A DNA stretch of 10,322 nt from Campylobacteraceae bacterium (GTDB taxonomy: Bacteria; Campylobacterota; Campylobacteria; Campylobacterales; Sulfurovaceae), in contig JALWZI010000288.1 of NCBI GenBank assembly GCA_027002755.1, forward strand, positions 1-10,322, in the 5' to 3' direction. Position numbers and translations under genes: made by a program. Within the stretch, counting starts at the first letter, position 1. Each line of letters begins with the position of its first letter. The notes beneath the pieces were generated by a model, which saw nothing but the letters and a program-made list of their open reading frames with translations, ran no database searches and was not told the origin of the DNA. Positions 3,169-5,498 of this stretch are shown one piece after another.

Positions 3169-4147
3169 GATGCTCTATCGCGAAGCCCTGAACCGGGCGA
3201 TCGACGAGTGTATGGCGGCCGATCCCAATGTGGTGATGCTGGGTGAGGATGTAGGGCTCTACGGCGGCAGCTACCGTGTCAGTGAAGGGCTGGTGAGCAA
3301 ATATGGTGAGAAACGGCTCATCGACACCCCCATCGCCGAGCTGAGTATCGTGGGGAATGCCGTCGGGATGGCTATCGGGGGCCTGCGCCCCATCGCCGAG
3401 ATCATGACGGCCAACTTCAGCCTCCTTGCCTTCGACCAGATCATCAACCATATGAGCAAGTACCGCTATATGAGTGCGGGCAAGATCACCCTGCCGATGG
3501 TGGTCCGTTTCCCCCAGGGGGTGAGCAAACAGCTGGCGGCTCAGCACAGCGAAAGCTACGAGCAGATGCTCAGTGCCGTCCCCGGGATGCACGTTTTTGC
3601 CGCCGGCGATCCCCACTACGCCTACCACGCCCTCAAAAAGGCGATCCTGATGGACGATCCGGTGGTGTTCATCGAGCATGAACTGCTTTACAACAAAAAA
3701 GGGGAAGTCGATTTCGATGCCGAAGTGGATCCCTTCAAAGCCCGGATCGTTAAAGAAGGAAACGATGTGACGATCGTCAGCTACCTCAAAATGGTCGACG
3801 ACGTGATGGCGGCGGTCCCCGAGATCGAGGAACGAACAGGTAAAAAGTGCGAAGTGATCGACCTGCAGTCCCTCAACCCCATCGACACCGGGACCCTGAA
3901 AACCTCCATCGAAAAGACCGGACGCCTGGTGGTCGTGGAAGAGGATCACAAGATGGGGGGCTACGGTGCCCAGATCGTCAGCTGGGCCGCCGAGAGCCTC
4001 TTCTACGCCCTCGATGCCGCGCCGCTGCGGATCGCCGGCGAAAACGTCCCCATCCCTTACAACCGCCAACTGGAGCTCGCTTCCATCCCCACGCCCGACA
4101 AGATCGCGGCGAAGATCATCCAATGGGGGGCGGACAATGGCCTATGA
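3161..4147 (+). CDS. pdhB: Pyruvate dehydrogenase E1 component, beta subunit
   Basis: Second half of the heterotetrameric E1; it completes the ThDP site and binds the E2 subunit-binding domain. The 328-residue length is normal. Visible motifs are GEDVGLYGGSYRVSEGL (28-44), DTPIAELSIVGNAVG (55-69) with the cofactor-activating Glu60, the LRPIAEIMTANFS segment (75-87) and AAQHSESYE (126-134) with the conserved His129. The C-terminal transketolase domain includes NPVVFIEHELLY-like DDPVVFIEHELLY and VVVEEDHKMGGYGAQI. The start at 3161 is chosen because GGAGGAGG lies just upstream and similarity begins at the first residue; the open frame upstream is inside pdhA. It overlaps pdhA by 8 nt and pdhC by 11 nt, a tightly coupled three-gene unit. 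Confidence 0.94.
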   Translation: MIEMLYREALNRAIDECMAADPNVVMLGEDVGLYGGSYRVSEGLVSKYGEKRLIDTPIAELSIVGNAVGMAIGGLRPIAEIMTANFSLLAFDQIINHMSKYRYMSAGKITLPMVVRFPQGVSKQLAAQHSESYEQMLSAVPGMHVFAAGDPHYAYHALKKAILMDDPVVFIEHELLYNKKGEVDFDAEVDPFKARIVKEGNDVTIVSYLKMVDDVMAAVPEIEERTGKKCEVIDLQSLNPIDTGTLKTSIEKTGRLVVVEEDHKMGGYGAQIVSWAAESLFYALDAAPLRIAGENVPIPYNRQLELASIPTPDKIAAKIIQWGADNGL

Positions 4148-5498
4148 GATCGTCATGCCCCAGCTCTCCGATTCGATGGAGGAGGGCAAGCTCATCAGCT
4201 GGAAAGTCAAACCCGGTGACCAGGTGAAAGTCGGCGACGTCATCGCCGAAGTCGAAAGCGACAAGGCGATCATGGAGGTGCAGAGCTTCAAGGAGGGGAC
4301 CGTCAAAGAGCTGAGGGTCCAGGAGGGGCAGAGCGTGCCCGTCGGAACGGTGATCGCTGTGATTGAGCCAACAGGCTCAATCACAAGTGAGGAGTCAGGA
4401 GTGAGGAGTGAGGAGCGGGCGAAGCCTGCGGCTTCGAATGAGCAATTAGGAATGAGGAATGAGGAACCGAAAGAAGAGCCTCAAAAAACTACTCAACCTT
4501 CAACACCTAAATCTTCAAACGACAAAGAGGCGCAACGCGCCGTTCAAACGACAAACGACTCCCATTCCATCCTCGACCAAATCCTCGGCTTCAACGAAAC
4601 CCCACCTTCAATCCAAAATCCGGGCGAAGCGACCGGCGTCGCTTCGCCGAAGGCCCGCGCCCTGGCGGCCCAATACGGCCTCGATATCGAGGCGCTTCAA
4701 GAAGAGGGCAAGCTCCCCACACCGGCCCACGAAGCCGATGTGAAACGCTACTACTACCGCCGCTACTTCACGGCCAAAGCCCTGAAGCTCCTGCACGAAT
4801 ACGGACTCTCTCCCGAGCTTTTCCCGGTGGGCAAAAAGCATAGCGAAAAGGAGATTCTCGCCTACATCGCCGAACATGAGATCCCCAAACCCGAGCCGCT
4901 CAGCCCCATGCGCAAGGCGATTATCGCCACCGTCACCCAGGCACAGCAAAAGCCGGTCTACCACATCTACGACGCCATCGACGCGACGCTGCTCAAAGCC
5001 CACGAGAGCGAGCGCTACACCCTCACCGTCTGGCTGCTCAAACTCTTCGCCGAGGCGATGATGCGTCACGAAGATTTCCGAAAGACCCTCAGTGGCGACG
5101 CCATGCAGCTGTGGCCCAATGCCTCGATCGCCCTGGCCATGGCCGACGGTGAAGCCCTCTACATGCCGGTCTTTCGGGACCTCAACCGCAAAAGCGTCGC
5201 ACAGATCGCCGACGAGCTGGCGGCGATGAAAGAGAAGGTCAAAACAGGCCGGGTGACGCCGGAGGATTTGAAAGGCTCGACCTTCGGTATCAGCAACTTA
5301 GGCATGACGGGCATCGAGCGTTTCGATGCCATGATCAACGCCCAGGATTGCGGCATCGCCGCCGTCGGCAGTGAAACGGGCGGCAAAATCTCTGTCACCC
5401 TCACCCTCGATCATCGGATCGTCAACGGACTGCAGGGGGCGCAATTCATGCAGACCCTCAAGGAGCTGGCGAAAGAGAAGACCCTTTTCAAAACTTGA
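4137..5498 (+). CDS. pdhC: Pyruvate dehydrogenase E2, dihydrolipoamide acetyltransferase
   Basis: Core of the PDH complex; it moves acetyl groups from E1 to CoA. The 453-residue product has one N-terminal lipoyl domain (about 1-79) with the lipoylation site ESDKAIME at Lys43. A long low-complexity linker (about 80-165) follows, then a peripheral-subunit-binding-like segment (ASPKARALAAQYGLDIEAL, 169-187) and a second similar segment (about 211-245, ending KHSEKEILAYI). The catalytic domain (about 254-453) has FGISNLGMTGI and the active-site LDHRIVNGLQGAQF with His426. The usual HxxxDG is HxxxNG here (Asn430). The catalytic domain is rather short. The start at 4137 overlaps pdhB by 11 nt. The linker DNA is unlike the rest of the gene: it is less GC-rich and built of hairpins, heptamers and a direct repeat. 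Pyruvate specificity is inferred from E1. Confidence 0.9.
   Translation: MAYEIVMPQLSDSMEEGKLISWKVKPGDQVKVGDVIAEVESDKAIMEVQSFKEGTVKELRVQEGQSVPVGTVIAVIEPTGSITSEESGVRSEERAKPAASNEQLGMRNEEPKEEPQKTTQPSTPKSSNDKEAQRAVQTTNDSHSILDQILGFNETPPSIQNPGEATGVASPKARALAAQYGLDIEALQEEGKLPTPAHEADVKRYYYRRYFTAKALKLLHEYGLSPELFPVGKKHSEKEILAYIAEHEIPKPEPLSPMRKAIIATVTQAQQKPVYHIYDAIDATLLKAHESERYTLTVWLLKLFAEAMMRHEDFRKTLSGDAMQLWPNASIALAMADGEALYMPVFRDLNRKSVAQIADELAAMKEKVKTGRVTPEDLKGSTFGISNLGMTGIERFDAMINAQDCGIAAVGSETGGKISVTLTLDHRIVNGLQGAQFMQTLKELAKEKTLFKT
4358..4464. repeat. Composite hairpin-heptamer repeat inside the pdhC linker
   Basis: Four blocks follow one another. First is a perfect 12-bp hairpin, TGTGATTGAGCC (4358-4369) and GGCTCAATCACA (4374-4385), with loop AACA. 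Next are four heptamers of type GTGAGGA (4387-4414; the second reads GTCAGGA). Then comes a perfect 7-bp hairpin, CGAAGCC (4420-4426) and GGCTTCG (4430-4436), with loop TGC. Last are four heptamers of type AATGAGG (4437-4464; the first two read AATGAGC and AATTAGG). The element is read in frame as a Ser/Glu/Arg-rich part of the E2 linker (residues about 75-110). It resembles intergenic short tandem repeats rather than coding DNA. Confidence 0.85.
4514..4555. repeat. 13-bp direct repeat around a small palindrome in the pdhC linker
   Basis: TTCAAACGACAAA occurs at 4514-4526 and again at 4543-4555, an offset of 29 nt, which is not a multiple of three. Between the copies lies a 5-bp palindrome, GGCGC (4529-4533) and GCGCC (4537-4541), with loop AAC. 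The two copies are therefore read in different frames. This looks like a target duplication or slippage product in non-conserved linker sequence. Confidence 0.7.
4623..4648. repeat. Perfect 11-bp hairpin at the end of the pdhC linker
   Basis: GGCGAAGCGAC (4623-4633) and GTCGCTTCGCC (4638-4648) pair perfectly around the loop CGGC. The hairpin encodes residues 163-171, just before the first subunit-binding-like segment. It shares the GGCGAAGC core with the hairpin at 4418-4436 and with the lipB/lipA junction. Confidence 0.7.

Follow-up and report, generated by a model that had tools for sequence, protein, structure and literature searches.

A heptamer and hairpin tract in the linker of pdhC

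The window (the whole stretch of 10,322 nucleotides that was analysed) carries a gene for the acyltransferase component (E2) of a 2-oxo acid dehydrogenase complex, and a series of short repeats and hairpins lies inside it, as follows.

4137..5498, forward strand: pdhC-like gene, 453 aa, for E2 (dihydrolipoamide acyltransferase); TIGR01349 is the best match in NCBIfam and scores below its cut-off
4358..4385, forward strand: 5' hairpin, arms 4358-4369 and 4374-4385, perfect 12 bp, loop AACA
4387..4414, forward strand: array 1, four units of GTGAGGA type (GTGAGGA-GTCAGGA-GTGAGGA-GTGAGGA); TRF row 4386-4415
4420..4436, forward strand: inter-array hairpin CGAAGCC TGC GGCTTCG, arms 4420-4426 and 4430-4436, perfect 7 bp, 3-nt loop
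4437..4464, forward strand: array 2, four units of AATGAGG type (AATGAGC-AATTAGG-AATGAGG-AATGAGG); TRF row 4436-4466
4514..4559, forward strand: short runs of CAAACGA, a third type of heptamer, found with repeat and hairpin tools including TRF
4623..4648, forward strand: further hairpin at the linker end, perfect 11 bp, GGCGAAGCGAC CGGC GTCGCTTCGCC, found by eye

The order of hairpin, four heptamers, hairpin and four heptamers given in an earlier note on this DNA was borne out base for base, by direct reading as well as by repeat and hairpin tools. Simulating the gene 300 times with a first-order Markov model never yielded a stem of at least 12 bp with a loop of 3-8 nt (observed 12) or a period-7 stretch of at least 18/21 matches (observed 19). 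When periods 5 to 11 were tested, period 7 alone attained 17/21 matches in the window, and this only at starts 4383-4441. The inter-array hairpin is of the same kind as the CGAAAGC-nnn-GCTTTCG hairpins that separate arrays elsewhere in the genome, and full arrays of the CAAACGA type are also found elsewhere in it. The hairpin at 4623-4648 has a counterpart, GGTGAAGCGAC-loop-GTCGCTTCACC, beside a TTGGATT-type array in the related genome G008 (locus L011; here G000 is the window's own genome, the other G numbers are compared genomes and L numbers are loci).

Pfam places the lipoyl domain of E2 (PF00364) at residues 4-76 and the catalytic domain at residues 252-445. No subunit-binding-domain family was among its Pfam matches at E values up to 1e-3, and the start of that domain (ASPKARAL, about 4650) was set by alignment alone. 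The tract had been described as lying between the lipoyl and subunit-binding domains; this is right for the linker as a whole but not for the left arm of the 5' hairpin, which begins within the last lipoyl-domain codons (residue 76 ends at 4364). The outer arm of this hairpin covers the conserved VIE with which the lipoyl domain ends, and its inner arm is the complement of that sequence and adjoins array 1.

The linkers of relatives were compared next to that of the window. Period-7 arrays of differing types occur in the pdhC linker of G000, G001, G005, G008, G010 and G011, which are all the array-bearing members of the genus with a pdhC match, and the linker of G007, a genome that gave no match to the array pattern, holds no array (best score 9/14). 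Scores of 12 and 13 of 14 were obtained for the linkers of two loci from other records, L094 and L101, as well, so that the pdhC linker looks like a recurrent array site; the linkers of G039 and G034 lay outside this scoring. An alignment with relatives had been proposed as a way to see presence or absence with clean junctions. The array-free linkers did prove unrelated in sequence, but the linker is too variable to give a clean empty site, and such sites were obtained only in the SdhA/FrdA- and SdhB/FrdB-like genes treated below. As a separate observation on the same protein, its active-site motif reads DHRIVNG (5409-5429, residues 425-431), where the canonical E2 motif is DHxxxDG; the N is present in 14/14 aligned rows that cover the site (L101 does not reach it) and, judged from this alignment, looks like a lineage trait.

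Because 7 and 3 have no common factor, three perfect GTGAGGA or AATGAGG units create a TGA in every reading frame, while arrays of CTCACTC, the opposite strand of a GTGAGGA-like array, are free of stops. The pdhC arrays run in the TGA-creating direction. In the window, the second unit of each array departs from the perfect unit precisely at the codon that would be an in-frame TGA: GTCAGGA gives TCA at 4395-4397, and AATTAGG gives TTA at 4446-4448. The codon expected to be TGA was replaced in 13/13 pdhC motif matches from five genomes (TTA 11, TCA 1, in the window, and CGA 1), a count in which one of five units of G008 may have entered twice, as two of its pdhC contigs end in the repeat, though with different flanks; a match NEE*GVRSE in L100, outside pdhC and on the opposite strand, is not among the 13. 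TTA units are also present in copies that look non-coding (about 16/20 non-pdhC rows, by eye), and the idea that the TTA variant marks coding copies alone was rejected. Since non-coding-looking copies have it too, coding copies may have inherited TTA, and suitable copies may have been retained instead of unsuitable ones being changed.

Dispersed copies of the composite repeat

With a 141-base query, 43 places in the window's own genome match the tract, itself counted. On contig C284, 83 bases spanning array, hairpin and array are 88% identical to it, and contig C129 carries a GTGAGG-type array, CGAAAGC-GAT-GCTTTCG, an AATGAGG array, TTTAGGG and GCGTTGC-TTT-GCAACGC. Composites of array, hairpin and array number 32 in our locus set, which was chosen around arrays. 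Both the blocks and their order thus recur, as the earlier note had proposed to look for, and its view of a defined repeat element is upheld by dispersed composite copies in this genome and in related ones. Neither of the two outcomes that it had named as refuting this view was obtained, since the blocks do recur and array-free relatives have unrelated linkers.

A pattern of four AATGAGG units, with up to 3 mismatches, was found in 16/60 genomes, the window's own included, all of them from one family (f1); the backwards control gave 0. Among 397 genomes spread over the phylum Campylobacterota, a related array pattern was found in 10, all of family f1 and of two genera. The palindrome GCGTTGCNNNGCAACGC, used as a query without any array, was found in 15/60 genomes with 2 to 57 sites each (backwards control 0). 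Array and palindrome occurred together in 14 genomes, the array alone in 2 (G021 and G030), the palindrome alone in 1 (G036) and neither in 43 (Fisher p 1e-10, with genomes that are related and not independent). In 400 kb of G011 sampled at even intervals, the source of the array counts, stem rates and palindrome distances given here, 5/6 palindromes lay within 55 nt of a period-7 stretch, compared with 58/4000 random sites. These results indicate that the tract in pdhC is one copy of a composite repeat that is dispersed through the genome of a Nitratifractor-like bacterium.

In the G011 sample there were 68 arrays of period 7, and 0, 9, 7, 6 and 0 of periods 5, 6, 8, 9 and 10. Units are of many kinds (AATGAGG, GTGAGGA, GGTGAAT, GATGGAA, AGCGTTG, CCAAAAT, AACACGT and others), and 36 of the 49 arrays of at least 26 nt measure 29-36 nt, about four units; the 19/68 shorter arrays were left out of the stem counts. 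Read on the purine strand, a 3' stem of at least 7 bp accompanies 15/49 arrays (1.3% of 3000 random positions) and a 5' stem of at least 9 bp accompanies 7/49 (0.13% of 3000 random positions). Stems of at least 9 bp are found on the 3' side in 2/49. No stem of at least 7 bp was present on the 3' side of 34/49 arrays or on the 5' side of 40/49. Two AATGAGG arrays of G011 are unusually long (L126, C1:99211-99358, and C1:1878346-1878427). In the same genome, a gene for a tyrosine recombinase of the XerC/XerD kind (L128 670-1536, near 181583) ends in a heptamer-encoded tail, GNEELGMRSEEPSD.

The two hairpins differ in character. The figures that follow come from the locus set, which is mostly array-centred and hence biased; this set also underlies the composite count above and the start-codon counts below. 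The loop of the 3' hairpin is 3 nt long in 66/74 cases (scan range 3-14), its inner arm is GCGTTGC in 36/74, the arms often being GCGTTGC/GCAACGC, and the loop triplet is variable, with 20/32 strand-folded triplets seen among 50 sites. Composites elsewhere often continue with TTTTGGTA, then GCGTTGC nnn GCAACGC and then T-rich sequence, with a mean of 4.2 T in the 8 nt downstream of the 3' hairpin. On the other side, a perfect 5' stem of 9-16 bp abuts 27/257 distinct arrays of at least 26 nt, and its arms vary by locus, orthologous loci excepted; the family palindrome accounts for one of these stems (L072 9928). The outer arm of the 5' hairpin consists of host sequence, such as the beginning of an open frame or conserved codons.

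In-frame copies in other genes and their flanking hairpins

That such tracts normally sit between genes, as had been supposed, is only partly right, and several copies are inside genes. Besides pdhC, in-frame arrays were found in SdhA/FrdA-like, SdhB/FrdB-like and DsbD-like genes, and the insert lengths of the in-gene copies keep the reading frame. The SdhB/FrdB-like protein is the iron-sulphur protein of succinate dehydrogenase/fumarate reductase (TIGR00384, above cut-off); for the SdhA/FrdA-like flavoprotein the best match, TIGR01812, is under its cut-off, with PF00890 and PF02910 above theirs. Together the two genes have three array places, and in both of them the array orientation is the one free of stops. 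In the DsbD-like gene (PF11412 and PF02683) of the window's own genome, the array lies in the linker preceding the membrane domain, and a matching array is present in G006. For the iron-sulphur and flavoprotein genes, two sets of 30 loci were gathered. In the former 13 were aligned and 9 more read, G041, G013 and G040 having no anchor motifs; in the latter 14 were aligned and 8 more read, G020, G014 and G019 having no anchors. The rest of both sets, mostly paralogs and weaker scores, stayed outside the counts of filled and empty sites.

At site 2 of the iron-sulphur protein, the interval between conserved motifs measures 66 nt in 11/12 array-free orthologs and 60 nt in the remaining one; one of these orthologs, that of G018, comes from a genome with arrays elsewhere. 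In six array-bearing members of the genus the interval is 102-114 nt with period-7 scores of 12-14 of 14, so that the inserts amount to 36-48 nt. Heptamers and encoded peptides differ between members; by eye, the units are CAACGCT, CCAAAAT and CATTCTC, and in three members CTCACTC or a near variant. At site 1, scores of 13-14 of 14 were obtained for five of the six members, and G009, with 7/14, has no array. G021 (C35, L194) was placed in neither the filled nor the empty group at site 2: it has there a different repeat, coding for glutamine and glycine, of the same length class (114 nt, period-7 score 8/14). Because this repeat differs, the site 2 loop is suggested to accept several kinds of repeat.

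The flavoprotein site measures 18-39 nt without an array in 12 orthologs, including that of the array-bearing G010, and 42-75 nt when filled, in six members of the genus, with units CTCACTC, CAACACT and CTACCCA; G008 (42 nt, 9/14) and G004 (63 nt, 10/14) are weak cases among these six. In G018 (L232), which belongs to another genus, the site holds a 75-nt array interval (SQSDANQNPSPFTLHPSLK) much like that of G011, while G018 has an empty iron-sulphur site 2. In a flavoprotein tree built without G018, the sisters G001 and G006 have different units at this site, and G012 (L227), whose genome is array-free and whose site is empty, groups within the filled clade. This requires two or more changes, through precise loss or repeated gain.

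The heptamer type thus turns over at fixed sites, and the flanking hairpins follow the host sequence. The first hairpin of pdhC is TGTGATTGAGCC/GGCTCAATCACA in G000 and G001, and in G005 it is TCGAAGAGGC/GCCTCTTCGA with a shifted centre. At iron-sulphur site 1, G006 has CCTCTTCCTCCG/CGGAGGAAGAGG and G008 has TGCCTCATCCTCCG/CGGAGGATGAGGCA, the other four members having shorter stems or none, and at the SdhA/FrdA-like site no stem of at least 6 bp was present in 5/6 members. A host hairpin at iron-sulphur site 2 was found in 6/6 filled orthologs and in 0/6 empty ones, the first six empty orthologs being those compared. Over the same 21 columns, 89.6% of cells were paired in the filled group, with 3 two-sided pairs and a covariation score equalled in 1/500 shuffles; in the empty group 47.9% were paired without an excess of covariation (220/500 shuffles), both samples being small and composed of related sequences. 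The inner arm at site 2 codes for LLD, and the empty sites have IID at the aligned codons. Judged from this alignment, the hairpin seems to have been written over existing codons, which favours template switching at the array border over an inverted copy simply added by insertion, a possibility that is weakened accordingly at this site.

Origin of the repeat and comparison with known systems

Taken as a whole, the data are very probably explained by a dispersed composite repeat whose in-frame copies are tolerated. Its layout is a host-flank hairpin, about four heptamers, a hairpin with a 3-nt loop and again about four heptamers. Copies would last in loops and linkers because in-frame inserts are tolerated only there, and the encoded tract would be a flexible, charged passenger in the protein. 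Less surely, array borders may be hot spots of template switching during replication or repair; such switching could exchange or homogenise heptamer units, giving the turnover of type at a fixed site, and could rewrite the adjoining host sequence into perfect hairpins. This last step is built on three in-gene sites. The tract had also been proposed to be domesticated as a linker. It does sit in a tolerant inter-domain linker and might be of use there, but a passenger that is tolerated and still changing accounts for the data no less well.

The earlier note had suggested a possibly mobile element, with transposition as a tentative origin, for which no mobiliser was found. A non-autonomous element moved in trans, by a REP/RAYT-like Y1 transposase, a reverse transcriptase or an unrecognised enzyme, would agree with the dispersal of copies in both orientations, with the conserved palindrome adjoining TTTTGGTA and with the in-gene copies, and Y1_Tnp is indeed present in the array-bearing G001, G008, G010, G011, G017, G018 and G021. 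However, Y1_Tnp (PF01797) was not found in the array-bearing G000, G004, G005, G006 and G009 (76, 99, 88, 88 and 96% complete), and it was found in the array-free G002, G007 and G012. As its presence does not follow the arrays in the genus, a Y1/RAYT transposase was rejected as the mobiliser. The same applies to a reverse transcriptase: RVT_1 is present in one array-bearing genome of the family f1, G017, but within the genus it is limited to the array-free G003 and G007. By eye, no direct target duplications were seen at the in-gene sites of the iron-sulphur and flavoprotein genes. We consider mobilisation in trans unlikely; the repeat may have spread through a different kind of mobiliser or by recombination between its copies. 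Apart from this, G011 has seven equal-scoring copies of a short Y1 transposase of 143 aa (L104 and six more places), probably an IS200-like element.

Fold-back insertion, in which the 3' end of broken host DNA folds back and copies about 12 nt before heptamers are added, would leave an inverted copy of the flank. The perfect 5' stems, with arms that differ outside orthologous loci, and the excess of long stems on the 5' side in the unbiased G011 sample speak for it, but the codons of site 2 look rewritten in place, and this explanation seems to us rather improbable. A selected regulatory RNA element (a terminator, a start-site hairpin or a GGA array), taken up into coding regions, would account for the T-rich sequence beyond the 3' hairpin. 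It would also account for a feature of 16 of the 27 5' stems of at least 9 bp, inside which an open frame directed away from the array has an ATG or GTG. Two of the 16 are pdhC copies on the wrong strand, and the figure for other arrays, under a 40-nt rule, is 56/223 (7/257 were too near a contig end). Against this, the heptamers are of many types, lie in both orientations and within unrelated genes, and some genomes of the same genus are without the repeat. At gathering thresholds, Rfam matched only tmRNA in the window, L003, L061 and L064 (53,401 bases), a known RNA family was rejected, and we regard such an origin as decidedly improbable. Ordinary slippage in a low-complexity linker, with hairpins arising by chance, is hardly credible: the linker does tolerate repeats and the two long arrays of G011 could be products of slippage, but most longer arrays keep to about four units, the simulations reached neither stem nor period, and the recurrence of the same units and block order in dispersed copies refutes it.

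The composite repeat ties together heptamer arrays and short palindromes, which are usually described apart. Its filled and empty sites in conserved enzymes make gain, loss, unit exchange and selection on the reading frame traceable base by base, and its in-frame settling in several metabolic genes offers a rare view of repetitive DNA turning into protein. More tentatively, and with considerable doubt, it might represent a new mode of propagation, in which template switching or fold-back makes the host-flank hairpins, swaps the unit type at a fixed site between sister species and has repeatedly built segments of core enzymes. If so, the footprint would be inverted and not direct, and in-frame segments of pdhC and of the SdhA/FrdA- and SdhB/FrdB-like genes would have been built in this way in one bacterial family.

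Among known systems, the small dispersed repeats (SDR) of Nostoc, of 21-27 nt, reportedly described by Elhai and others in 2008, are said to lie inside tandem heptamers, some with hairpins; these are reportedly small, with varying arms, within the heptamer arrays of Cyanobacteria. We know of no host-matched flanking hairpins or in-frame enzyme copies among them. REP/REPIN palindromes go with a RAYT transposase. A short palindrome in many copies is present here too, and no Y1 (RAYT) transposase was found in five carriers of the genus. As far as the accessible text of one account goes (PMC12306157), the likeness to REP/REPIN lies in a short conserved palindrome with an adjoining conserved tract in tens of copies per genome; unlike them, the palindrome here is joined to heptamer arrays and the Y1 transposase does not follow the copies. 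Terminal inverted repeats and direct target duplications, the marks of MITEs, were not recognised by eye at the arrays with 5' stems and at the in-gene sites. In nematomorph mitochondria, perfect inverted repeats of up to 284 bp occur in coding sequence, for which template switching is among the mechanisms that the authors consider possible; these palindromes are mitochondrial, and the accessible part of the paper describes no heptamer arrays (PMC6649704). Among titles and abstract openings we found no description of the repeat in Campylobacterota, and the accessible part of the Nitratifractor salsuginis genome paper mentions neither palindromes nor heptamers and names CRISPR as the sole genomic repeats.

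TAACTGA heptamer repeats are known from Beggiatoaceae, Cyanobacteria and Bacteroidetes, where they are mostly intergenic (MacGregor 2015, PMC4679880). Going by the accessible text of that paper, they share with the present repeat short arrays of 7-nt units, other heptamers mixed in and some stop-free arrays in reading frames, and they differ in unit and in phyla, the units here being GTGAGGA, AATGAGG and others; a hairpin composite, filled and empty enzyme orthologs and a stop-replacing variant are not described in it. The TAACTGA unit is absent from the pdhC tract, which resembles these repeats in kind (7-nt arrays) and not in family. Rickettsia palindromic elements, from what the accessible text on them states (PMC10969869), are likewise in-frame palindromic repeats in unrelated metabolic genes, of about 150 bp and each with a conserved encoded peptide, whereas the copies here are mosaics of heptamers and short hairpins and, unlike those elements, sister species hold different heptamers at the same site. 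Because the defining features of each known family are present only in part, we do not file the repeat as a member of any of them; closest in behaviour are the Rickettsia palindromic elements, for their in-frame copies, together with the heptamer repeats of other phyla.
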